Assembly: GCA_937870685.1 (NCBI GenBank) | Contig: CALMZX010000077.1 | Location: 1-64,000 of the forward strand | Length of the DNA: 64,000 bases | Direction: 5' to 3' | Source of the DNA: an uncultured Alphaproteobacteria bacterium | GTDB lineage: Bacteria; Pseudomonadota; Alphaproteobacteria; Rhizobiales; Aestuariivirgaceae | Part shown: positions 51,321 through 64,000 of the stretch, piece by piece | How the letters are laid out: every line of letters begins with the position of its first letter | Position numbering within the stretch: position 1 is the stretch's first letter | Notes under the pieces: model-generated | What the model was told of the DNA's origin: nothing | Database searches by the model: none | What the model saw: the letters and a program-made list of their open reading frames with translations, nothing else | Translations under genes and position numbers: made by a program

Positions 51321-52778
51321 ATGCTGTTCAATTCCGTCGCATACATATTCGCCTTTCTGCCCGTCACAGCCTGCATCTTCTGGCTGTTGATGTGGCTTGG
51401 ACACAAGCAGATGGCGTTGTCGGCGTTGAGCCTCGCCTCGCTGTTCTTTTACGGCTGGTGGAACCCTGTCTATGTGCCGCTGCTCCTGGCGCTGGTGCTG
51501 GCCAATTACGCCATTGGCTATTATCTCGCCACACAGCGGCACTGGCGCAAGTCCGTTCTCACCGCAGGACTCATCCTCAACCTCTCGGTTCTCGGCTACT
51601 TCAAATATGCGGCCTTCCTCGCCGCCAATGCCAACAGCCTGCTTGGCACCAGCATCGAGACCGGCACGATCCTCCTGCCTTTGGCGATTTCCTTCTTCAC
51701 CTTCCAGAAGATCGCCTTTCTGTGCGACGCCTATGCCGGCAAGGTGAATGACCTCGGTTTCCTGCGCTTCGGACTGTTCGTCTCGTTCTTTCCGCAACTG
51801 ATCGCGGGCCCCATCGTCCACCACCGCGAGATCATGCCCCAGTTTGCCAGGCTGGAGATGAAACACCTGAGCTGGGGCACGCTTGCCACGGGCATGAGCC
51901 TGTTTTCCGTTGGCCTGTTCAAGAAGGTGGTGATCGCCGACGGCCTCTCGCAATTTGTCGGGCCGGTGTTCACTGCGGCATCCGAAGGTGCCAGCCTCAA
52001 CACCGGAGATTCCTGGCTGGGCATGCTGGCCTACACCTTCCAGCTCTACTTTGACTTCTCGGGATATTCCGACATGGCACTCGGAAGCGCCCTGCTCTTC
52101 GGCATCCACCTGCCGGTGAACTTCTACTCACCATACAAGGCCACCAGCATCATCGATTTCTGGCGGCGCTGGCACATCACGCTGTCCAGTTTCCTGCGCG
52201 ACTATCTCTACATTCCCTTGGGCGGAAACCGCCACGGACCGTTGCGCCGCTACTTCAACCTGTTCATCACCATGCTGCTGGGCGGACTGTGGCACGGCGC
52301 GGGTTGGACCTTCGTGGCCTGGGGTGCGCTTCATGGGTTTTATCTCATCATCAATCACCTGTTCCGCACAGTGGCGGGTGAGAGCCGCAGCCGGCTGGCT
52401 GGCCTCGCGGGCTTCCTTCTCACATTCCTGGCGGTGGCCATTGCCTGGGTCTTCTTCCGCGCCCCGACCTTCCCGGCCGCTCTGGCCGTGCTGCAAGGAC
52501 TTGCCGGTTCCATTGACGCGCCTCAGTTCCTTCCCGCCTCGGTCACAGGCACGGTGCTGATGATCAGCTCACAGCCCGAAGAAGCTGCCGCCGCCATGCT
52601 GGCCATTGCCGCGGCGATGGCCTTCCTTCTGCCCAACGCGGCCCAGTATTTCCTGACGCCGGACCGCCGCCTCGCTTTTGCGCCCAACCTTTTCAACTTC
52701 CTGCTGGTTGCGGCCTGCTGGATATGCGTCATCATCAGCCTGGGGGGACCAAGTGAGTTTCTCTATTTCCAGTTCTGA
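51321..52778 (+). CDS. MBOAT-family O-acyltransferase (AlgI-like)
   Basis: MLFNSVAYIFAFLPVTACIFWLL; FFPQLIAGPIVHHREIMPQF; GGLWHGAGWTFVAWGALHG. Confidence 0.94.
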   Translation: MLFNSVAYIFAFLPVTACIFWLLMWLGHKQMALSALSLASLFFYGWWNPVYVPLLLALVLANYAIGYYLATQRHWRKSVLTAGLILNLSVLGYFKYAAFLAANANSLLGTSIETGTILLPLAISFFTFQKIAFLCDAYAGKVNDLGFLRFGLFVSFFPQLIAGPIVHHREIMPQFARLEMKHLSWGTLATGMSLFSVGLFKKVVIADGLSQFVGPVFTAASEGASLNTGDSWLGMLAYTFQLYFDFSGYSDMALGSALLFGIHLPVNFYSPYKATSIIDFWRRWHITLSSFLRDYLYIPLGGNRHGPLRRYFNLFITMLLGGLWHGAGWTFVAWGALHGFYLIINHLFRTVAGESRSRLAGLAGFLLTFLAVAIAWVFFRAPTFPAALAVLQGLAGSIDAPQFLPASVTGTVLMISSQPEEAAAAMLAIAAAMAFLLPNAAQYFLTPDRRLAFAPNLFNFLLVAACWICVIISLGGPSEFLYFQF

Positions 52779-53925
52779 CCCCCGGCGTTTCGTCATCGCC
52801 GTCCTCGTGTTCCTGGCATTGCTCTTCGGGCTGACGGTGTTGGCCCGCCAGGTGCTTGTGGCGACCGGAGACTTCCTGCCTGAGGAAGATATTGTCCGCA
52901 TGCAACAGTCCGCAGGGCGGCCCTGCATCTTCTCGGAATATGGAAAACAGAACGAAGGCTTCTACAAGTTTGAAATCTACAAGACCGTCAAACCTGATAT
53001 CGCCGTTCTCGGCTCCAGCCGGGTGCTGGAACTGACCCAGCGGCAGTTCTCGCGGCCCTTCGTCAACCTCGGCCGCGTGATGACCGACATCAAGCGCGGC
53101 GAGTCGGCGGTGACAGAACTCCTCGCCATCCATAAACCGAAGTTTCTTCTGGTGGGCCTCGACCAGTACTGGTTCAATCCCAACTGGGATGAGGCAGGCG
53201 TCGACAAGGTGAAGCGCGTCCGCTCCGACCCCAATGACCCGCGTGCCATCCTGCGCCTGGTGAGTCTGGTCTGGCGGGAAGGGTTGTGGGCTGAAGCATG
53301 GCAGGCCCTGACGCAGGGCCCCGAATGCCATCTCGGCATTTCCGCGAAGCGTTTTCTTTCAGGCTATGCGGCCGATGGTTACCGCTACTACGGTGACCTG
53401 CTCACGGCCAGTGAACCCCACGAAGACCAGAACTTCCGCATGACGCTGGGCCGCATTGCCAACGGCAACCGCCGCTTCGAAAAGGCGTCCACTGTGTCAT
53501 CCAGCCAGTTTCAACACCTGCTGGACTTGCACCGAAAGTTGGACGCGGACGGCGTGCCCCATGTCTTCTTCTTTCCGCCCTTTGCCCCCACCGTCACCGC
53601 CGCAATGGAGAAAGATGGCGGATATGGCTACATTGCCGACCTGGAACGTACCATCAGGGAGTCCGGCCTGCCCTACGTGGCGACCACCGATCCGCTGCTG
53701 CATGACTGTGATTTCATCGACGGCTTTCATACCGGTGACGCGGCCTCGGTCCGCCAGATCAGGGCCCTAGCAAAACAGGACGCACGCCTCGTGCCCTTTC
53801 TCAACATGCCGGAAGTGGAGCGGCTCTCGGCACCGGGTTCCAGCCCCATGAACTATCTCACGGAGGATCTTGGCTTGCCCCCGAAAGACTATCTGGACCT
53901 GGGGTGCGCGTGGGCACGACAGTGA
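52753..53925 (+). CDS. SGNH/AlgJ-X-like membrane-anchored protein
   Basis: GTG start inside the MBOAT 3' end; TM then DIAVLGSSRVLEL and a late DGFH motif. Confidence 0.6.
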   Translation: MSFSISSSDPRRFVIAVLVFLALLFGLTVLARQVLVATGDFLPEEDIVRMQQSAGRPCIFSEYGKQNEGFYKFEIYKTVKPDIAVLGSSRVLELTQRQFSRPFVNLGRVMTDIKRGESAVTELLAIHKPKFLLVGLDQYWFNPNWDEAGVDKVKRVRSDPNDPRAILRLVSLVWREGLWAEAWQALTQGPECHLGISAKRFLSGYAADGYRYYGDLLTASEPHEDQNFRMTLGRIANGNRRFEKASTVSSSQFQHLLDLHRKLDADGVPHVFFFPPFAPTVTAAMEKDGGYGYIADLERTIRESGLPYVATTDPLLHDCDFIDGFHTGDAASVRQIRALAKQDARLVPFLNMPEVERLSAPGSSPMNYLTEDLGLPPKDYLDLGCAWARQ

Positions 53926-53998: not shown

Positions 53999-55438
53999 TT
54001 GAAAGCAGTCTATCTTTACTTGCCGATGGAGATTGCCGTGCGCGAGTTCGATTCTCGTCTGCTGATCGCCCTGATTGCCGTTGAAAACGGCATGGAGGTC
54101 ATCATGGGCCAGAAGTGGCTCATGGAGAAGAACATCGAAGCCATGCCGCCCGGCTTGTGGATATTCAAGACCATGACCAAGCGCGATTCCAAGCGCATGG
54201 CACGCTGCAAGGCGGCAGGCCACACAGTGGCGTCGATTGACGAAGAGGTTCCAGCGACCGCGGAAGGCAGCGGCGAACTGCTTTGGGTATCAGATGAAGC
54301 AGTACGTCTGTGTGACCGAATATTCTGCCTTGGCGAGGAACACCGCAAGAGCCTTGTGGGCAAGTGGCCCGCCACAGCTGACAAGCTCTTGATCACCGGC
54401 AACCCCAGATGGGATTATCTCCGTCAAGAACTTTCGCCTCTCTATGCCGCAAAGGCCAGGGAATACAACGACCGGTTCGGACGCATTATTCTCATGAACA
54501 CCAATAATGGCAGTGTCAATCCAGAGAAGAAAAATGCTGAGGACGTCTTCAAGGACTACGTGAAAGCCAAGAAAATCGACCCAAACAATGCACAGCACAT
54601 GGCGCTGTGGAACGACTTTATCGCGTTTGAACAGGCAAACTTCGCGGCGACGGTACCGCTCGCACGGGAACTGGCGGCAGCTTTTCCGAAACATACGCTG
54701 ATCCTTCGCCCGCATCCCGGGGAGCGGCTGGCGACCTACGCTGAACAGCTTTCGGACCTTGCCAACGTCAAGGTACTGTTCGAGGGATCAGCTGCTCCGT
54801 GGATCATGGCATCGGACGTCATGGTTCACACCGGCTGCACAACCGGCATTGAGGCCTTTGCCATGGGAAAGCCCTGCATCAATTTCGAGTCACTGCCGTC
54901 GCGCCTCAATAAGGTTCTGCTCTCGACGCGCCTTGGCTTTACCGCGCGGACCGTCAATGATGTTGTCGCCGAGGCGCGGCGCATAGTTGACTGTGGACCA
55001 GACGGTTCACCCTATCCGATAGCTACGACAGAGACTTTCCGTCGATTCTTCTCTGCACAGAGTGGGCCGCTCGCGGCTGAGAGAGTGGTGGATGCGGCGC
55101 GGCAGCTTCTGGGTGGCACCAGTTCGCATCATGCGGGCATCGCGCAGTGGCACCCAAGATGGACCTACAAGACCTGGTGGCCCTCAAAATCGTATAACCG
55201 TAAGATGTTTCCTCCTATTGACACAGATGCCTTGGGGGTGCGCCTCAATGCCCTTGCAGCGGTGCTGAAAAAGCCGTCACGCCCGGCCTTTGTAACGTGT
55301 GGTGACAGCATGGTTCATCTCTTTCCTGCCCACCTCAAAGCGCCAAAGCCAGTGGGCACCCTGCCCGCCAGGTTGATCGGCCAATTCCTTTTCAGTAAAG
55401 TGAAGGCAGAACATCGCACTGGGTCGGGACACGACTAG
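53999..55438 (+). CDS. Surface carbohydrate biosynthesis protein (GT-B-like), TTG start
   Basis: KLLITGNPRWDYLR, LILRPHPGERLATYAEQ, SDVMVHTGCTTGIEAFAMGKPCINFES. Confidence 0.75.
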   Translation: MKAVYLYLPMEIAVREFDSRLLIALIAVENGMEVIMGQKWLMEKNIEAMPPGLWIFKTMTKRDSKRMARCKAAGHTVASIDEEVPATAEGSGELLWVSDEAVRLCDRIFCLGEEHRKSLVGKWPATADKLLITGNPRWDYLRQELSPLYAAKAREYNDRFGRIILMNTNNGSVNPEKKNAEDVFKDYVKAKKIDPNNAQHMALWNDFIAFEQANFAATVPLARELAAAFPKHTLILRPHPGERLATYAEQLSDLANVKVLFEGSAAPWIMASDVMVHTGCTTGIEAFAMGKPCINFESLPSRLNKVLLSTRLGFTARTVNDVVAEARRIVDCGPDGSPYPIATTETFRRFFSAQSGPLAAERVVDAARQLLGGTSSHHAGIAQWHPRWTYKTWWPSKSYNRKMFPPIDTDALGVRLNALAAVLKKPSRPAFVTCGDSMVHLFPAHLKAPKPVGTLPARLIGQFLFSKVKAEHRTGSGHD

Positions 55439-55495
55439 CAGTCATGGCAAGGCACTGCCCACGAGCGTCCAGAACCAACGGAGACTACATCGGCC

Positions 55496-56434
55496 GTGAA
55501 CTTAACCATCATGATGTACCATTATGTGAGGCCGCCAGAAGCACCATTTCCGCGGTTGAAATCGCGCAGCCTCCAGGACTTTCGCGGGCAATTGGACTAT
55601 CTGCAGATGCGCCACAACATGGTGACAATGGAGGATGTACTGGCGGCAATTGATGGACATCAAACATTGCCACAACAAGCGGCGTTGTTGACGTTTGACG
55701 ACGGCTATTCTGACCACTACCGCTATGTCTTTCCGGAATTGTTGACCCGCAAGATCACCGGGGCCTTCTATGTCCCAGCATGCACTGTACGTGAAAGAAA
55801 GCTTTTGTCGGTCAACAAAATCCACCTTCTCCTGGCAACCCTCTCAGACGTGTCGGCCATCGTCGGCACAATTGATCGTGCGGTCGACGATGCCCATGGC
55901 AGGGGTCAGCCAGATGTTCAGACTGCACAGGCCTATCACCATGAATACATGAAGGCGAGTCGGCTCGATACTGCGGAAGTGATCTACGTGAAGAGGATGC
56001 TTCAGCACGCCTTGCCTGAAGCATTCCGCGAAGAAATCTTGGACCAACTGCTTCGGAGATTTGTCACCAGTGACGTGAGAGCACTGGCTGACGAGTTCTA
56101 CGCAAGTGCCGCGAACCTGGCCGAAATGCGAAGCGCTGGCATGCACATTGGCGGGCACGGAGATCGCCACCTGTGGCTCAACAGGTGCAGTGTTGAAGAA
56201 TGCGCCCAAGAGGTTGCCGCCTCGCGCGCGCTGTTGAAGAGCCTCGGCGTCAAGGAAGCAGAGCTGACGTTCTGCTACCCTTATGGTGGCTTTACCGCAG
56301 ACACAATCGAATGTGTTAAGCGGGAGGGCTTTCGCGCAGCCGTAACCACAGAGGTGGCAATTGCCGGTCTTGCGACAGCAAACAGATTTCGTCTCCCGCG
56401 CCTTGATACTATCGACTTGCCCGTTGCGGCGTAA
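55496..56434 (+). CDS. Polysaccharide deacetylase family protein
   Basis: TIMMYHYVRPPEAPFPRLKSRSLQDFRGQLDYL; ALLTFDDGYSDHYRYVFPELL; IGGHGDRHLWL. Confidence 0.92.
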   Translation: MNLTIMMYHYVRPPEAPFPRLKSRSLQDFRGQLDYLQMRHNMVTMEDVLAAIDGHQTLPQQAALLTFDDGYSDHYRYVFPELLTRKITGAFYVPACTVRERKLLSVNKIHLLLATLSDVSAIVGTIDRAVDDAHGRGQPDVQTAQAYHHEYMKASRLDTAEVIYVKRMLQHALPEAFREEILDQLLRRFVTSDVRALADEFYASAANLAEMRSAGMHIGGHGDRHLWLNRCSVEECAQEVAASRALLKSLGVKEAELTFCYPYGGFTADTIECVKREGFRAAVTTEVAIAGLATANRFRLPRLDTIDLPVAA

Positions 56435-56476
56435 ACCAGACGGGAATATGGCAGCACAGCAGTAGAAGGCTCAGAA

Positions 56477-57166
56477 ATGAATACCGCAATCGCTCCGGAC
56501 GTACCGGAGGCCAACACACAGATGTGGGACAAGATCTACAGGTCGGGCTCCATGCTTTGGTATCCAGCGGAAGCCTTGGTTCGGCTGGTGCGCCGCCACG
56601 AAAAGAGCGACGGGTTTGCGGGCACTATACTTGATCATGGCTGCGGCACCGGCAATGTCGCCGAATTTCTGACGCGCTCGGGCCATGCAGTTCATTGTAC
56701 GGATGTATCCTCCGAGGCGCTCGCGATAGTGAGCCAACGCTTTGCCAAGGCCGGTTTGCCAAATCCAGGTATCACGCTTATCGAGCCGCGCCTGGATCTC
56801 GGTCAGCAACTTCCACAGTTCAACCACGTAATCGCTTGGCAGTCTCTATGCTACGGTACGCGCCCAAACACGATTGCAAGCATAGCGAGTCTGGTCGAGG
56901 TACTTCCGGCGGGCGGCTGTTTCATCATGTGTTTCCCGACAGCAAATGACTTGCTCTACCGCCGTTCCGAACCCTTGGCAGATGGCAGCAGGTGCTTTTC
57001 GGAGTCCGTCTCAGACCAAATGGGAGCCGTGCTCACCATTCCTGAATCTGAAGAGGAACTGCGCTCATGGTGCAGCGGCATCACCATAAGGGACGTGGTT
57101 GAGTATGGTATGCGCTTCGCGGGTGAGCAGAACCAATTCCATGTGATCTATGGTGTGAAGGCATGA
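56477..57166 (+). CDS. Class I SAM-dependent methyltransferase
   Basis: GTILDHGCGTGNVAEFLTRSGHAVHCTDVSSEALAIVSQRF. Confidence 0.9.
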   Translation: MNTAIAPDVPEANTQMWDKIYRSGSMLWYPAEALVRLVRRHEKSDGFAGTILDHGCGTGNVAEFLTRSGHAVHCTDVSSEALAIVSQRFAKAGLPNPGITLIEPRLDLGQQLPQFNHVIAWQSLCYGTRPNTIASIASLVEVLPAGGCFIMCFPTANDLLYRRSEPLADGSRCFSESVSDQMGAVLTIPESEEELRSWCSGITIRDVVEYGMRFAGEQNQFHVIYGVKA

Positions 57167-57942
57167 GCATCCCCACAACAACGCGGGCGGCCATGGCGGA
57201 CCACATCGCCGCGCTCAACGTTGGTGCTGGCGACAACATCGTTGTGCACAGCCGTCTGACCTCATTCGGCCTGCTCGAAGATGGCAGCGAGGGTGCATGC
57301 GCTGCCATCCGTGCCGTGATCGGAACAAGGGGCACACTGGCTGTGCCCACCTTTAGGCTGCATGCGTCTGTGAGCGATGTATATAATAGGCTGACGTCGC
57401 CGTCGGAGAGGTGCGGGCAACTGTCTGAGTTTGTGCGCCAGCTTCCAGAATCGCGCCGCAGCCGCTGTCCGCTGCACTCATATGCAGCAGTGGGGCCGGA
57501 CTCCAGTTTGCTGGACCAGCCTACCGGTCGATTCTCCATGGGGCCAGATTCAGACTTCGATGTTCTCCACCACAATGGCTTCAAGCAGGTGTTCCTTGGG
57601 GCCGAATTTGCCGATGCCGCGACGATTGTTGTCCACGCAATGGCCTGTTTTGGGCGCATCCCCTACCGGACTTGGCTAGACCTCCCGCGTCAGGTGGTCG
57701 ATGACGAAGGCAACACGAGAAACATAGCTTGCCGTTACTACGGACGAAGCGACAGGAGTACTGATATAGAGGACTGGTCGGTTCCAAAACCGATTCTGGA
57801 ACGTTCCGGAAAGCTACATCAGCAGAAAACTCATTTCGGTCGCAGCTATGCCTTCATGATGAATGACCTGATCACTATTTTGATCAATCATCTGACAGAC
57901 AATCCTGAAGGATTGCTTGCTTCCACTGGAGCCCCTGCATGA
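57163..57942 (+). CDS. AAC(3)-family (aminoglycoside 3-N-acetyltransferase-like) acyltransferase
   Basis: NIVVHSRLTSFGLLEDGSEGACAAIRAVIGTRGTLAVPTF; RCPLHSYAAVGPDSSLL; TIVVHAMACFGRIPYR. Confidence 0.82.
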   Translation: MSIPTTTRAAMADHIAALNVGAGDNIVVHSRLTSFGLLEDGSEGACAAIRAVIGTRGTLAVPTFRLHASVSDVYNRLTSPSERCGQLSEFVRQLPESRRSRCPLHSYAAVGPDSSLLDQPTGRFSMGPDSDFDVLHHNGFKQVFLGAEFADAATIVVHAMACFGRIPYRTWLDLPRQVVDDEGNTRNIACRYYGRSDRSTDIEDWSVPKPILERSGKLHQQKTHFGRSYAFMMNDLITILINHLTDNPEGLLASTGAPA

Positions 57943-59411
57943 TCGATGTAGTGGAGCGGTTTACTAACCAGGCCCGGCGTCATCCGGATGCTTTGGCCGT
58001 CACAGACCGTGGCATTTGCTACAATTATGGCAAGATGCATCAGCTGGTGCAGAATCTGGCAATGAAGGCAGGCAAGAACGCAGACCATCCACGAGTGCTA
58101 ATCCTGCTGGAACAAGGTTATCATGCCTATTCGGCCAAGTACGCAGCATTGATGGCAGGCGGTTTCTACGCGCCTGTAAACATTGAAGCTCCGCAAGCAA
58201 AAATTCAGCAGATCGCGTGCCAGTTTATGCCCGATGTGGTAATAAGCGGTCCGCAGTTCTTGGAACTTGCAACGCTTGTTGCCCCTCAGGCGCATGTCAT
58301 CAACGTGGCCGCAGAGGAGACTTCCCGGCCCGCGACCTACGCCGCCCGACCGGCGCATGATCTCGCGTATGTGATGTTCACATCGGGTACGACTGGCGAG
58401 CCCAAAGGTGTCATGATCCCGCGCGACGCGCTCAATCACTACGTCGACTGGGTTGTAGGCATCGTGGATGCACGCTTGGGCGACCGGTGGTCACAACATC
58501 CCATAATTGCCTTCGACTTGAGTCAGTTCGACATTCACGGTGCACTGTGTTCCGGCGGGCACCTTTTTCCATTCAATACTCCGAGAGACCGGATGTTTCC
58601 CGCTCTCGCCATTCGACGTCACGGCATTACAATCTGGAACTCCGTTCCCAGCGTAATCAGCCAGATGAGCCGCGCGGGACATTTGACTGCCGAAAATCTT
58701 GCCACACTCCGGACGTTGAACTTCTGCGGAGAGGCCCTGTTGCGGGAACATGTGGAAGCAGTCTTTTCAGCTTGCCGGGATGCTTCTGTGCACAACACAT
58801 ATGGCCCGACGGAAGCGACTGTGTCTTGCACGTTCCTTCGCCTCACCAGAGACAACTACCAGGACCACTGTGCAGCCAACGTGGCAATTGGCGAAGCCAT
58901 TCCCGGCAGCGCCATTCATCTCGTGAACGGCCCAAATGAAGACGAGGGAGAAATAGCAATCACAGGCGTGCAATTGGCCCGTGGCTATTGGCAGGATGAA
59001 GAGAAAACAGCGGGAGCTTTCCGCCCCCTTCATATGAGCGGAGGCAACGAGCGGGCCTACTTTACAGGCGACTACGCTCACCGCGTGGAGGGAAAAATAT
59101 TCTTTGCCGGGCGTCTCGACTTTCAGGTCAAAGTGCGCGGCCGCAGGTTGGAACTGCTGGAGGTCGATGCTGCCTTGCGCAAATGTGGCTTCACGCACGC
59201 TGCGACGGCTCTGGTCGGCGACGAACTTCATGCATTCCTAGAGACCGATCTGACGTCGATTGATGCTGGCGCGTTGCGCGCGTCACTTGCAAATCACATC
59301 GAACAACATGCAGTTCCCGCGCATTTCCACCTGTACTACACCCTGCCCAGAAATCCCAACGACAAGATCGATGTGAAAGCGCTTATTGCTTCGGTCAAGA
59401 GTGAGTGCTAG
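57939..59411 (+). CDS. Stand-alone NRPS-type adenylation (AMP-binding) enzyme
   Basis: YVMFTSGTTGEPKGVMIPRDAL (A3), FDLSQFDIHG (A4), NTYGPTEATVSCT (A5), YFTGDYAHR (A7), NPNDKIDVKAL (A10). Confidence 0.93.
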   Translation: MIDVVERFTNQARRHPDALAVTDRGICYNYGKMHQLVQNLAMKAGKNADHPRVLILLEQGYHAYSAKYAALMAGGFYAPVNIEAPQAKIQQIACQFMPDVVISGPQFLELATLVAPQAHVINVAAEETSRPATYAARPAHDLAYVMFTSGTTGEPKGVMIPRDALNHYVDWVVGIVDARLGDRWSQHPIIAFDLSQFDIHGALCSGGHLFPFNTPRDRMFPALAIRRHGITIWNSVPSVISQMSRAGHLTAENLATLRTLNFCGEALLREHVEAVFSACRDASVHNTYGPTEATVSCTFLRLTRDNYQDHCAANVAIGEAIPGSAIHLVNGPNEDEGEIAITGVQLARGYWQDEEKTAGAFRPLHMSGGNERAYFTGDYAHRVEGKIFFAGRLDFQVKVRGRRLELLEVDAALRKCGFTHAATALVGDELHAFLETDLTSIDAGALRASLANHIEQHAVPAHFHLYYTLPRNPNDKIDVKALIASVKSEC

Positions 59412-59422
59412 CGCTTAGCAGC

Positions 59423-59671
59423 ATGAATCTGCTCACGCCAGAACAATTGTTGGCATCCGCACTGCGTTGCAGTCCGGATGCAATCAACTCCGAAAGCGCA
59501 CTTGCTGTGCATCCCAACTGGGATAGCTTCGGCCACATGTCAGTCATGCTGGAACTCGAAAAGCACTATGGCATCGAGGTCTCCGATGAGACCATCAGGC
59601 ACTTTGAAACTTATGAGGCGATACGCCAGCGCTACGATGCCTTGTTGCGCGACCGACGCGTTACGCTTTGA
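59423..59671 (+). CDS. Acyl/peptidyl carrier protein
   Basis: HPNWDSFGHMSVMLELEKHYGIEVSDETIRHFETYEAIRQRY; DSF is the phosphopantetheinylation Ser. Confidence 0.9.
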   Translation: MNLLTPEQLLASALRCSPDAINSESALAVHPNWDSFGHMSVMLELEKHYGIEVSDETIRHFETYEAIRQRYDALLRDRRVTL

Positions 59672-59674
59672 TTT

Positions 59675-60367
59675 TCACCTCTCGCCCATCAGGAATTCCA
59701 CGAACCGGAAGTCCAGTTCGCTGTCGATGTCGATGGAACGCTCTTCGGGCATTTCATAGAGCCGCGTATCGGGATAGAGGACGCGGGGATCACTCACAAA
59801 GGGTTCTCGCCGCCAGACATAGATCGAACCGTTCATGTCCCAGCAGCGGGGGCTGTCCTGACGGCGCACCACTGCGGTGGGCAGTGTCTTGGAAAGCCGC
59901 ACGAAACCGTCTTCGTTCTTCTCGACCAAGGTGAAATAGGGCGAACGCCGGGATGGGGCGCCAGTGATGACATTGCTGGCACCCGTTTCATGAAACAGCG
60001 CGACGGCACCCAGGATATCCTCCGGCAGGCGCAGCGGAGACGTGACGTCGAGGTCAACAAAGGCATCATATGACCGTCCCAGCCGCTTCTCCGCTTCGAG
60101 GAAACAATGCCGGATGGCGGGTGGCTTGGCGGCGAGATCGGTCGCCATTTCGGGTGGGCGCGCGATCAGGATGTCCGCCCCGTGGGCTCTCGCCGCAGCG
60201 AGGATGTCCTCGCTGTCGGAACTGAAAGCCACTGCATCAAAAAGCCCGCTGGCCTTGGCCTGGCGGATGGTGTGGGCCAGCAGCGGAAGACCGAGAAGCG
60301 GCCTGAGGTTCTTTCCCGGCACACCCTTCGAGCCTCCGCGCGCCCCGATGGTACAGACGAGCCTCAT
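59675..60367 (-). CDS. CMP-nonulosonate (legionaminate/NeuA-like) cytidylyltransferase
   Basis: IGARGGSKGVPGKNLRPLLGLPLLAHTIRQA; VDLDVTSPLRLPEDI. Confidence 0.9.
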   Translation of the reverse strand: MRLVCTIGARGGSKGVPGKNLRPLLGLPLLAHTIRQAKASGLFDAVAFSSDSEDILAAARAHGADILIARPPEMATDLAAKPPAIRHCFLEAEKRLGRSYDAFVDLDVTSPLRLPEDILGAVALFHETGASNVITGAPSRRSPYFTLVEKNEDGFVRLSKTLPTAVVRRQDSPRCWDMNGSIYVWRREPFVSDPRVLYPDTRLYEMPEERSIDIDSELDFRFVEFLMGER

Positions 60368-61431
60368 GGACCGAAGAGCCTGTGGAATTCAGCCTGGGCA
60401 CGTTCAAGGTCATCAAACTTGCCGATGTCGAGCCAGTATTCGTGGATCGGAAAGCTGCTCACGGTACGCCCTGCCTTCATGGCGGCTTCCAGCAGCTGCG
60501 GCATGTCGAAATAGGCCGCCGGCGGGATATGTTCCAGGAGTGCGGGATCAAGCACATAGATGCCGGCATTGACAAAGAAGGAGCGAACCGGCTTTTCAAC
60601 GATGCCTGTGACATTTGAGCCTTCGAGCTCCACGACACCGTAGGGCACCTGGATGCTGTAGTCGCGCACACACATGGTGGCCTGCGCCCCATGCTCGGCA
60701 TGGAAGGACATCAGATTGCGGAAATCGACCTGTGTGAGAAGATCGCCGTTCATGACGAGGAAGGGTTGCTCGGGCATCTCCGGCAACAGGCTCAGGGCAC
60801 CCGCCGTACCCAGCCGTTCACTTTCTTCGATGTAGCGGATTTCCGCTCCAAACCGGCTGCCATCACCGAAATGCCGCCTGAAGACGGGGGCCATGTAATT
60901 CAGGGCCAGATAGATGCGCGAGAAGCCTTGCGTGACAAGGGCACGAATGATGGTCTCAAGGAGCGGCTGGCCCCCAACAGGCAACATGGGCTTGGGCGTG
61001 GTTTCGGTGAGAGGGTGAAGCCGCGTGCCCCGCCCGCCCGCCATGATCACCACCCAGGGCGGAGTGCCGCGGTCTTCGGCGCCGCCGTCACCATCGATCA
61101 GATGAAGCCCCGTGATGCGGCCTGATCCGTCAAGCGCCGGAAGGTGCCTGATGCTGAGGCGGCGCATGATGGCCAGCGCCTCTTCCCGGCCTGCCGTCGC
61201 CTTCAGGAAGGCGGGCTTGGTGTTCATGATCTCCGCCACGGGAGACTGGAGTGACGCGCCCTTCAAGAGGCCACGGCGCACATCACCGTCGGTGACAACG
61301 CCGAGCAGCACGCCGTCAGCACCCGCGACCAGCACTGCCTGGAGGTTGCCACCGTCAATCGCCTTGATGGTCTCGAGTATGCTGGCATCTGGAGAAACGG
61401 TCACGTCGCCGAGTTGGGAAACGGGAATCAT
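60364..61431 (-). CDS. CBS-domain + sugar nucleotidyltransferase (PtmE-like)
   Basis: N-terminal CBS pair; VVIMAGGRGTRLHPLTETTPKPMLPVGGQPLLETII. Confidence 0.9.
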   Translation of the reverse strand: MIPVSQLGDVTVSPDASILETIKAIDGGNLQAVLVAGADGVLLGVVTDGDVRRGLLKGASLQSPVAEIMNTKPAFLKATAGREEALAIMRRLSIRHLPALDGSGRITGLHLIDGDGGAEDRGTPPWVVIMAGGRGTRLHPLTETTPKPMLPVGGQPLLETIIRALVTQGFSRIYLALNYMAPVFRRHFGDGSRFGAEIRYIEESERLGTAGALSLLPEMPEQPFLVMNGDLLTQVDFRNLMSFHAEHGAQATMCVRDYSIQVPYGVVELEGSNVTGIVEKPVRSFFVNAGIYVLDPALLEHIPPAAYFDMPQLLEAAMKAGRTVSSFPIHEYWLDIGKFDDLERAQAEFHRLFGP

Positions 61432-62504
61432 GGATCGAACGGTTCCCCTGCCGTGTAACTTCGCGCCACGGGACGTCCCACCACATCCCAATAGGCCATG
61501 GGCGACAATCCGGCTCCCGCACGCAGAATTGAGACGTCACCGGGCGTGACCGTTTCACCGGCGCTGAGGGCCCGCGCCGCAACGATGACTTTGCGCGCCA
61601 CCGACTTGTTGGCCGCTTCCGAAGGCCGGGCCTGCTTGATGCCATCGCCGAGCGCCAGTTCCACGGCGCGGATGCCGTCCACCATCGCCTTGAGAGCATC
61701 CGGCTCGATCGAGGCCTTGTGGTCCGGACCCGGCAGGGTGCGGTCCAGCGTGAAGTGTTTTTCGATGACGGCCGCACCGCGCGCCGCCGCGGCGATGGCG
61801 GCCGTGATACCCTCCGAATGGTCACTGAAGCCGACTGTCAGTCCAAAACGATGTTGCAGCGTATCCATGGCGGTGAGATTGATGTCGGCCAGCGGCGTGG
61901 GATACTCTGTCGTGCAATGCAGCAGCGTCACCTTTTCCCGGAGGGCAAGCTGCCCCTCCGCTGACGCAAAGACGGTGGCGAAGGCGGCACGTGACGGCGC
62001 TCCCTGCCCGGCAAAGCCGAAGGCCAGAACGGCCAGCGCATCTTCGACTTCCGCGAGATCACCCATGCCCGTGGACAGGATGAGCTTTCGCCCCGTCCGG
62101 GCCGCCTGAAGCAGAAGCGGACCGTTGGTGAGTTCGCCGGAGCCGAGCTTGATGGTGGGAAGCCCGAAGCGCACCGCAAGCAGATCAAGACTGTCGGGAT
62201 CGAACGGCGTGGACAGGAAGGTGATGTGGCGCAGCTTGCAGCGTGCGATGATGGCCTCATGGTCTTCGGCACTCAGTTCGAGCGCGCGGAGCATCTCCAG
62301 CTGCGTCGGCTGCCCGGGCGCGTTGCGCTGCTGGTAGGCCGCCTTCGCGGCGCGGGAACTGGCCAGCTTGTCAGCCTTGAAGGTCTGGAATTTCACCATG
62401 TCGGCTCCGGCCGCCGCCGCCGCATCGGTCAATTCAAGCGCCCGTGCAAGCGAACCATTGTGGTTCACCCCCGCCTCCGCAATGATCGTTACACGCTGGC
62501 TCAT
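61428..62504 (-). CDS. N-acetylneuraminate/legionaminate synthase family (NeuB/LegI)
   Basis: VTIIAEAGVNHNGSLARALELTDAAAAAGADMVKFQTFKADKL; C-terminal SAF domain. Confidence 0.95.
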   Translation of the reverse strand: MSQRVTIIAEAGVNHNGSLARALELTDAAAAAGADMVKFQTFKADKLASSRAAKAAYQQRNAPGQPTQLEMLRALELSAEDHEAIIARCKLRHITFLSTPFDPDSLDLLAVRFGLPTIKLGSGELTNGPLLLQAARTGRKLILSTGMGDLAEVEDALAVLAFGFAGQGAPSRAAFATVFASAEGQLALREKVTLLHCTTEYPTPLADINLTAMDTLQHRFGLTVGFSDHSEGITAAIAAAARGAAVIEKHFTLDRTLPGPDHKASIEPDALKAMVDGIRAVELALGDGIKQARPSEAANKSVARKVIVAARALSAGETVTPGDVSILRAGAGLSPMAYWDVVGRPVARSYTAGEPFDP

Positions 62505-63655
62505 GCATCTTCCCAAGTGGCACGAAAGCGCTTGTGAAGCAACCGCGCGGGATCGGCGGCGTGGGCCATGATCACGGCGGCAATGCGCTGCGAGGCCTTG
62601 CCGTCGCCATAGGGATTGCTGACCATTTTCCGCCCCCCGGCCAACGCATCGGCCATGGCTGCGAGAATGGCGGCGGGCTCGGCCGGGCAATCCGCGACAG
62701 ACGCTGCCTTGAGTCTGCCATCTTGCCGCGTCCCCACATTGACCGTGGGAATGCCCATGCTGGGCGCCTCGTAAAGCCCGCTGGAGGAATTGCCCACCAT
62801 CACCGAACAATGCGCAAGCGCATTCACAAAGAGGGCATTGCCAAGCGACGGCACGAGAACCGCATTGCTCCGCTGCTCCACGAGGTTTTCAAGCATACGC
62901 GTGATGCCGAGGCGGCCCGTATCGGCATTGGTGCCTGAAATCAGCAATGCATGGCTTTCATCCAGCCCGGCGAGGGCTGACACCAGTGCCCGGGCCTCTG
63001 CTGCCGGGTCTTCCGCCAGCGTCACCGGATGCATGGTGACGAGCACCACGGCTCGCGCATCGGCGAGGCCCACCTCCGCGAGGAATGCGGCACGCGCCAT
63101 GATGGGGACAGAGAGAAGCAGGTCAAGCGACGTGCTGCCCACCATGTGCACCCGCCCGGGATCCTCCCCCATCTGTATGAGGCGCTGCGCCGAAATCCCG
63201 TTGCTTGGGAAATGCAGGTGCGAGAGCTTGCTCACCGCATGGCGAATGGCATCATCCACCGCGCCTTCCGAAACATCACCACCGCAGAGATGGGCGATGG
63301 GAATGCGGGCCATCATGGCGGCGGAGGCAGCGGCAAGTGTCTCGTACCGGTCACCGAGAAGGAACATCATGTCGGGCTTCACGCGCGCGATCACCCCGGC
63401 CATGCCGGACAGGATACGCGCCATGGCGCCAGTCGTCTCCACCGCGCTGTCGCCCGACAAGACGGGATCAACAATCTCGATGTCATCAAAACCCGCGGCG
63501 CGGATCATGCTGAGGGTGCCGCCAGACGCAGCATCCAGGTGCTGGCCAGTCACAGCCAGCCGCACGTCCATTGCCGGATCCGCGCGCATGGTCTCCAGCG
63601 GCTTGACGAGATAGCCCCAGTCCGCACGACTTCCGCTGACGGCAAGAAGCCGCAT
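62501..63655 (-). CDS. UDP-N-acetylglucosamine 2-epimerase, hydrolysing (NeuC/LegG-like)
   Basis: MRLLAVSGSRADWGYLVKPLETM; FLLGDRYETLAAASAAM; CSVMVGNSSSGLYEAPSMGIPTVNVGTRQDGR. Confidence 0.95.
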   Translation of the reverse strand: MRLLAVSGSRADWGYLVKPLETMRADPAMDVRLAVTGQHLDAASGGTLSMIRAAGFDDIEIVDPVLSGDSAVETTGAMARILSGMAGVIARVKPDMMFLLGDRYETLAAASAAMMARIPIAHLCGGDVSEGAVDDAIRHAVSKLSHLHFPSNGISAQRLIQMGEDPGRVHMVGSTSLDLLLSVPIMARAAFLAEVGLADARAVVLVTMHPVTLAEDPAAEARALVSALAGLDESHALLISGTNADTGRLGITRMLENLVEQRSNAVLVPSLGNALFVNALAHCSVMVGNSSSGLYEAPSMGIPTVNVGTRQDGRLKAASVADCPAEPAAILAAMADALAGGRKMVSNPYGDGKASQRIAAVIMAHAADPARLLHKRFRATWEDA

Positions 63656-63665
63656 GGCGCGTTGC

Positions 63666-64000
63666 TCAGATGTTGTAGCGGTCATGATCGTAACGGGCCA
63701 GGTTGGCAGGCTCCATGAACCATTGCGCCGTCTCCGCGAGGCCGCGACGGAACCCTTCCAGGCCGCCATGCGCCGGGTTCCAGCCAAAGGCCGCCTGTGC
63801 CTTGGCGGTGCCGGCAAAGAGCCGTTCCACTTCGCTGGCGGCCGGACGCAGGCGCTGGGCATCTTCCACGAAGGCGATCTCCCTGCCCATCACCTCCGCG
63901 ATCAGGCGTGCCGTATCCAGCACCGAAATCTCGAAACCGCTGCCGATGTTGGTGACACTGCCGACAATCGCATCGCAGGCAGCCGCTGCGATGAAGCCCT
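63666..64000 (-). CDS. NAD-dependent epimerase/dehydratase, C-terminal part (5' end outside window; LegB-like from context)
   Basis: Frame is open to the window edge: GFIAAAACDAIVGSVTNIGSGFEISVLDTARLIAEVMG...AQAAFGWNPAHGGLEGFRRGLAETAQWF. Confidence 0.85.
   Translation of the reverse strand, partial: GFIAAAACDAIVGSVTNIGSGFEISVLDTARLIAEVMGREIAFVEDAQRLRPAASEVERLFAGTAKAQAAFGWNPAHGGLEGFRRGLAETAQWFMEPANLARYDHDRYNI

Follow-up and report, generated by a model that had tools for sequence, protein, structure and literature searches.

The glycinylation of lipid A by AlmE/AlmF/AlmG employs an adenylation (A) domain, a carrier protein and a separate transferase that acts on a glycan, and in the biosynthesis of butirosin, BtrJ/BtrI/BtrH ligate an amino acid to a carrier protein and move it to the amine of an amino sugar. 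A comparable arrangement is encoded in the draft genome (3.3 Mb, 92% complete) of an uncultured alphaproteobacterium of the family Aestuariivirgaceae, in a window of 64,000 nucleotides (the whole stretch of DNA analyzed, positions 1–64000 of the 77933 of contig C77, CALMZX010000077.1). Six genes on one strand (53999–59671) encode, in this order, a TIGR04396 protein, a CE4 deacetylase, a methyltransferase, an acyltransferase with the fold of the aminoglycoside 3-N-acetyltransferases (AAC(3)), a stand-alone A domain and a carrier protein (Table 1). We propose, with a probability of about 0.55, that these genes comprise a transferable cassette that would N-aminoacylate an amino sugar of the cell surface. 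The acceptor would most likely be the nonulosonic acid (NulO) specified by the adjoining genes, in its CMP-activated form, or a precursor thereof. The likeness to AlmE is one of described architecture, and AlmG is a lipid-A acyltransferase-type protein, whereas the transferase here has the AAC(3) fold; the butirosin enzymes belong to other ligase and transferase families, and their product is an antibiotic rather than a surface glycan.

DltA/DltC is likewise a stand-alone A domain with a carrier, and the A domain described here has several pocket positions in common with DltA, including the Cys of the FCGE motif. However, DltA belongs to a separate, strongly supported clade, and the transferase of that system is a membrane-bound O-acyltransferase (MBOAT), unlike the AAC(3)-fold protein proposed here. 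The Cj1295 system of Campylobacter jejuni is similar in that a non-acetyl acyl group is placed on the amine of a NulO and that an aminopeptidase-like protein is present, as in most of the AAC(3)-like loci discussed below. The same locus also includes Cj1307 and Cj1308, whose annotations are those of an amino-acid-activating enzyme and a carrier protein. The modification is N5-(2,3-di-O-methyl)glyceroyl on pseudaminic acid, and of this locus only Cj1295 was tested in that study (PMC3068675); the N-acetyltransferase gene Cj1296/7 and the fkbH-domain gene cj1302 are also located there (PMC3068675, PMC7099621). The differences are that the acyl group is glycerate, not an amino acid, and that in the window the loader is an A domain and the place of DUF4910 is taken by a CE4 deacetylase. 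In Clostridium acetobutylicum, the genes around that of the DUF4910 structure 3K9T (CA_C2186-2199) similarly bring together a NulO synthase, aminosugar N-acetyltransferases, a carrier and DUF4910, but one of these N-acetyltransferases carries a fused HAD phosphatase domain, and an A domain is not listed; the published account does not include the AAC(3) clade structure or the A-domain variant (PMC4000134).

Amino acids amide-linked to surface amino sugars are already known chemically, e.g., in the flagellar glycan of C. difficile RT027, where an amino acid or peptide is amide-linked to Fuc3N on a surface protein; the genes proposed in that case encode an acyltransferase together with ligase and dehydrogenase functions for alanine (a D-alanine ligase and alanine dehydrogenase), and a carrier protein is not mentioned (PMC5207245). 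Carrier-linked acylation of NulO has also been hinted at by gene neighborhoods. In a literature search that covered few subscription papers, we found no paper on an A domain-carrier-AAC(3) route or on how the AAC(3)-like enzymes divide into clades.

The proposal is carried by the gene content of the cassette, the families and clades of its proteins, its recurrence and its appearance as a compositional block. The cassette genes have a GC content of 54–56.5% (0.61–0.65 at third codon positions, GC3), compared to 60% (GC3 0.75–0.80) for the upstream MBOAT gene and its neighbor and 62–65% (GC3 0.72–0.75) for the downstream NulO genes. As a whole, the 5.7-kb block has a GC content of 55.9% vs the contig mean of 61.2% (sd 1.7), which is essentially the minimum among segments of the same length, and the GC steps coincide with positions 53999 and 59671. 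The six-gene block thus looks like an acquired cassette inserted between the MBOAT pair and the opposite-strand NulO cluster. A scan for promoters and terminators gave a result no better than chance.

A sequence-only reading of the window had delimited five genes on the forward strand (55496–59671), and the domain models agree with it on each of them. It missed the first gene: the TIGR04396 gene (53999–55438) also belongs to the unit because it shares the composition of the block and its synteny is retained in the genus-mate G008. The 4-bp overlaps reported in that reading are present between the methyltransferase and AAC(3) genes and between the AAC(3) and A-domain genes, but the deacetylase and methyltransferase genes are 42 bp apart, and the junction of the A-domain and acyl carrier protein (ACP) genes is either a 7-bp overlap with a GTG start or an 11-bp gap with an ATG at 59423.

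The following scheme is inferred throughout, from the individual reactions to the identity of the amino acid and of its acceptor. The A domain would adenylate a small amino acid and load it on the phosphopantetheine of the carrier, and the CE4 protein, a probable de-N-acetylase that retains the TFDDG and HGDRH metal motifs, would strip the N-acetyl group from the sugar and free its amine. The AAC(3)-fold protein, for which we propose the role of a carrier-dependent N-aminoacyltransferase, would then pass the aminoacyl group from the carrier to the free amine, using acyl-carrier in place of acetyl-CoA, and the methyltransferase may cap the added group. Finally, the TIGR04396 protein, a probable transferase of the finished sugar with an additional, sub-threshold match to the model of BFO_1060-type glycosyltransferases, would hand the sugar to the surface glycan. 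Two homologues of this protein are encoded in the G008 cassette and one in the Pelagibacteraceae locus L042; the deacetylase, in which no N-terminal signal was apparent on inspection by eye, has homologues in L029 and L143; and a homologue of the methyltransferase (191 bits) adjoins the AAC(3)-like gene in genome G829, with weaker ones in L040, L023, and L148.

The A domain retains the FDxS Asp (D193) and the A10 Lys (K476), both noted from the sequence before and both invariant across six homologues, and scores 295 bits with TIGR01733, slightly below the cut-off of 317. In the phylogenetic tree, it belongs to a clade of 9 with 100/100 support (the window, G008, G901, G921, G924, Mesorhizobium, Colwellia, and two Pelagibacteraceae) that lies outside the DltA-type clade (itself 100/100) and apart from the A domains of nonribosomal peptide synthetases (NRPS). 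The carrier has the expected DSF serine and, although general ACP models recognize it weakly, a family profile recovers it together with homologues adjoining the A domain in L029, L039, L040, L041, and L042. No condensation or thioesterase domains are present in the annotated neighborhood of the window or in the other loci of this clade, and the close homologues are found outside NRPS clusters, so the earlier conclusion that this is not an ordinary NRPS stands.

By motif alignment, the pocket code of the A domain is DLFNNCTVSK, and those of its relatives are DLLNTCTVSK, DLMNSCTVSK, DITNNCTISK, DLLILCTVSK, DLVVFCAVSK, and DLAIFCAVSK, whereas DltA-type sequences have codes such as DLMVLCTVAK. 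The window and DltA-type codes have D, L, C, T, V, and K in common, and the window code is distinguished by its Asn residues at 278 and 299 and its Ser at 331; judging from these aligned codes, the family partly shares the D-Ala pocket, with a predicted pocket that is more polar in the window (the two Asn residues). Judged by its low score against the DltA equivalog model (247 bits, cut-off 559.85) and its position outside the DltA clade, the A domain is not a DltA, and the analogy with DltA that had been drawn from the sequence is one of architecture. The association of the A-ACP pair with glycan rather than NRPS genes is upheld, and the earlier reading that the AAC(3)-like protein moves an activated amino acid onto an amino sugar is supported in part by these comparisons.

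The transferase matches the Antibiotic_NAT profile (PF02522) with 81 bits against a cut-off of 25, and its AlphaFold model (pLDDT 85.8) aligns with AAC(3)/YokD structures in Foldseek with a TM of about 0.80–0.85. The tree of AAC(3)-like proteins resolves into three sets. A clade of 9 with 98/96 support includes the window protein, and an A domain is encoded nearby in 8 of these 9 cases; in this A-partnered clade, the canonical HP of AAC(3) is usually replaced by xP[IL]H[SN]. Another clade of 9 (99/97) consists of AAC(3)-IId, YokD and seven other proteins, and searches of their surroundings revealed neither a carrier or loader gene nor NeuB. The remaining proteins, whose internal branching is weakly supported, have FkbH, AMP ligases or ACP as partners. 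A resistance AAC(3) identity was rejected given that the clade of the window protein is separate from AAC(3)-IId/YokD and that the score with NF033082 is 71 bits vs a cut-off of 270.

Close relatives of the A domain, other than that of the window, are rare (1 of 60 kin genomes, 0 of 385 class genomes, and 3 of 399 phylum genomes); the class-wide search combined with the kin genomes yielded no close homologue outside the genus. Close homologues that are ~31–51% identical and form one clade are found in unrelated bacteria. The AAC(3)-like, A-domain and ACP genes are adjacent in a Colwellia metagenome-assembled genome (L040), in two Pelagibacteraceae single-cell genomes (L041 and L042) and in G008. 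The Colwellia locus additionally encodes a methyltransferase and DUF4910 near a WbuX/HisH/HisF sugar-amidation set, and the Pelagibacteraceae loci include two NeuB-like genes and a CMP-transferase-like gene. The G008 locus (L029), on a contig of 6.6 kb only, contains the AAC(3)-like, A-domain, ACP and TIGR04396 genes, with a second TIGR04396 gene and a deacetylase gene on the opposite strand. The A domain of G008 is broken into two frames (L029:4632-6175), through either an assembly error or a real break. G901 encodes an A-ACP pair and DUF4910, from which the AAC(3)-like gene is separated by 2.1 kb, and G921 encodes an AAC(3)-A pair. Four Mesorhizobium plasmid records carry a 43% identical A domain, and in the two that were examined (L030 and L031) the A-ACP pair is followed by a GNAT gene inside a Vi-antigen-like capsule export cluster, which by its gene order appears to be a parallel route using another transferase fold. 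A multi-domain NRPS in a polysaccharide cluster of a Leisingera plasmid was set aside.

Accordingly, rather than occurring mainly in clusters of NRPS or polyketide synthases (PKS), a distribution that would have spoken against a glycan role, homologues of the A-ACP pair are found with AAC(3)-like or GNAT genes and glycan or NulO genes, and none of the loci of the A-domain clade is in an NRPS cluster. As a contrast, at least 80 A-domain loci found with generic A-domain motifs in a collection of genome contigs were retained, most of which are NRPS or DltA because of the motifs used; among those listed, an AAC(3)-like gene is present in 4, three from the clade of the window and one from a distant member of Selenomonadaceae. 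The module lies next to NulO genes in the window and in L041, L042, L123, L108, L021, and L145, and L023 contains a partial frame of NeuB. By contrast, the presence of NeuB anywhere in the genome (12 of 12 genomes) is weak evidence because 9 of 14 control genomes also match.

A deacylating partner is a further recurrent component. Among 21 ACP-type AAC(3)-like loci, 14 have DUF4910, 3 have a CE4 deacetylase (the window, G008, and G829), none has both, and 4 have neither, which may reflect contig ends; all these counts are small. Cj1295 is needed for the 5-N-dimethylglyceroyl group of pseudaminic acid in C. jejuni, and it has been proposed to remove the N5 acetyl group (PMC3068675). The paper on the DUF4910 structure lists a NulO synthase, an N-acetyltransferase and a carrier protein among the neighbors and Campylobacter among the carriers of this domain, suggests amino-sugar transacylation, and points out the absence of the peptidase catalytic residues (PMC4000134). 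Taken together, these findings are most simply read as removal of an acyl group and subsequent re-acylation from the carrier, where DUF4910 may perform the first step in most sister loci and the CE4 protein would take it over in the window.

When the AAC(3)-like profile was the only query against the 399 phylum genomes, 12 loci other than that of the window were identified, 10 of which have an A domain, FkbH domain or ACP nearby and 8 of which have DUF4910; some bias remains since the profile was built on A-linked members, although FkbH partners are absent from it. In L146 (L146:2901-5399), AAC(3) and FkbH are fused in one frame (TIGR01686, 273 bits), and L147:1948-4443 matches the same fused layout; both fusions adjoin DUF4910 and a carrier-reductase protein. 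By its domain content, this sister system would place glycerate on an amino sugar. L021 and L023 combine an AMP ligase, an ACP, an HMGL-type aldolase, DUF4910 and NulO genes. L123 (IMGVR_UViG_3300002519_002597), which is catalogued as viral, encodes an AMP ligase, an AAC(3)-like protein, DUF4910 and a fused cytidylyltransferase-NeuB, and is possibly a NulO-acylation module on a virus or else a miscalled island. The Selenomonadaceae NulO/AAC(3)-like cluster L108 also includes an Avs5-like gene (L108:3425-5896; NF041814, 248 bits, cut-off 1000). AAC(3) matches in plasmids and phages were set aside as annotated resistance or YokD-type genes, and a Natrononativus AAC(3) and weak order-level matches (L022, L024-L028) served as controls without carrier context.

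We tentatively suggest, while considering it somewhat less probable than not, that a large branch of the AAC(3)/Antibiotic_NAT fold N-acylates NulO and other amino sugars with ACP as the natural acyl donor, with mainly the loader swapped between systems (amino acids being loaded by A domains, glyceryl by FkbH and other groups by AMP ligases), and that the CoA-dependent resistance enzymes are a separate offshoot. Surface sugars with amino acids or unusual acyl groups are chemically known, whereas the enzymes that attach them are mostly unassigned; the cassette offers a testable assignment of the loader, carrier, transferase and deacylase. Such an assignment would explain "aminoglycoside acetyltransferase" genes in flagellin and capsule loci, which are easily misread as resistance genes, and could provide a modular toolkit for the production of altered sialic-acid-like sugars.

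Several observations weigh against the assignment of the cassette to N-aminoacylation of a NulO. Two of the clade loci, L037 (G921) and L143 (G829), contain no NulO gene in the stretch examined, even though NeuB is encoded in each of the two genomes; in the tree, the L143 A domain falls outside the 100/100 clade; beside the A domains of L037, L038, and L143, an ACP was not found; L142, a member of the AAC(3) clade, lacks a nearby A domain; the window genome, 92% complete, contains no DUF4910 gene; and the pocket code, as read from the alignment, does not appear to reveal the amino acid specificity. Furthermore, AAC(3) catalysis depends on the His and Glu of the TxPhiHPhiAE motif (PMC8956665), which most of the A-partnered relatives retain (e.g., TFLHHLEA, TYIHHMEA), whereas in the window (TIVVHAMA) T154, at a helix start in the predicted model, is followed by IVV, H158 and AM, such that the canonical +3 position is Val, the +6 position is Met and a His comes one residue later. 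G008 is similarly altered (TFVFHSQA, again with the His one residue later). The label "AAC(3)-like" given from the sequence is therefore accurate for fold and family but not for the catalytic positions, and either the shifted His would take over catalysis or the protein would be impaired. The latter possibility, i.e., a catalytically dead or regulatory protein in this genus and a decaying cassette, could also account for the A domain split in G008, but we regard it as unlikely: the frames of the window cassette are all intact and have 4-bp overlaps, the A-domain motifs are preserved, a His is retained one residue away, and the fact that two species at low identity are altered alike points to constraint more than to random decay.

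A different acceptor for the same machinery, namely another amino sugar of a glycan (e.g., a 4-amino-4,6-dideoxyhexose), is unlikely but deserves serious attention. The Mesorhizobium capsule clusters, in which no NulO genes were seen, and loci L037 and L143 are compatible with such an acceptor, as are the peptidyl group on Fuc3N in C. difficile (PMC5207245) and the DegT aminotransferases, one of them adjoining a PglD-like gene, on contig C140 of the window genome; however, most of the members found have genes for a NulO synthase and a CMP-transferase next to the module, and in the loci compared, DUF4910 and TIGR04396 accompany NulO genes. A Dlt-like O-acylation, in which the A domain and ACP would feed the MBOAT and its membrane-anchored partner for the esterification of a polysaccharide on the outer side of the membrane and the AAC(3)-like protein would have some other role, appears quite improbable. 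The DltB-like MBOAT gene (51321–52778) lies upstream of the cassette on the same strand with small gaps, and the A domain has, besides the FCGE Cys, the TYGPTEATV motif in common with DltA; still, the MBOAT scores 162 bits with the DltB model, far below the cut-off of 375, and this role is disfavored because of the composition of the pair and because a homologue of the MBOAT was found in none of the related loci tested, whereas the AAC(3)-like gene is retained in them. Natural product pathways also make use of stand-alone A domains, carrier proteins and methyltransferases, as well as of enzymes with the AAC(3) fold such as FrbF. Indeed, FrbF is among the fold matches of the transferase model, and the module could make a small secreted or signaling amide next to sugar genes by chance; because linkage to NulO or polysaccharide genes recurs in unrelated taxa, with no NRPS or PKS module seen in the clade loci, we consider such a product the most remote of the options.

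The adjoining genes, for LegF-, LegI-, LegG- and LegB-like proteins, are mutually adjacent (59675–64676) and form a cluster that resembles the legionaminic acid pathway, as judged from family models, which cannot separate it from the Neu5Ac pathway with certainty. A LegC aminotransferase and a LegH acetyltransferase are not encoded in this NulO cluster of the window; the DegT aminotransferases and the PglD-like gene mentioned above are located on contig C140.

Table 1. Genes of the cassette and of the adjoining NulO cluster in the window
Feature	Coordinates	Strand	Model match
TIGR04396 "surface carbohydrate biosynthesis protein"	53999..55438	+	NCBIfam 288 bits, cut-off 125
Polysaccharide deacetylase, CE4/NodB type	55496..56434	+	PF01522 2e-16
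SAM-dependent class-I methyltransferase	56477..57166	+	PF13649 2e-11
AAC(3)-fold (Antibiotic_NAT) acyltransferase	57163..57942	+	PF02522 1e-22
Stand-alone amino-acid adenylation domain	57939..59411	+	PF00501 5e-54; TIGR01733 8e-88
Carrier protein, serine in DSFGHM	59405..59671 (GTG) or ATG 59423	+	NCBIfam ACP models 6e-5
Cytidylyltransferase, CMP-NulO synthetase, LegF/NeuA-like	59675..60367	-	PF02348 3e-17
CBS-domain nucleotidyltransferase, PtmE-like	60364..61491	-	PF00571 + PF00483
NulO synthase NeuB/LegI	61428..62504	-	TIGR03569 437 bits, cut-off 400
NeuC/LegG-type 2-epimerase	62501..63652	-	TIGR03568 368 bits, cut-off 236
GDP-mannose-dehydratase-like, LegB-like, C-terminal part	63666..64000, on to contig 64676	-	PF16363 7e-67, whole gene (L156:3667-4677)

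Upstream of the cassette, the MBOAT gene is followed by a gene for an unclassified membrane-anchored protein (52747–53925; single-sequence model pLDDT 38) with a "VLGSSR" stretch, which suggests a putative SGNH-type partner of the MBOAT; together, the two genes (51321–53925) probably encode an O-acyltransferase pair. A second MBOAT is encoded at contig positions 65787–67160. Further surface-glycan tailoring genes, for a Kdo hydroxylase (PF11004; C77:64863-65774) and a carbamoyltransferase (C77:69731-71563), are located past the window on the same contig.

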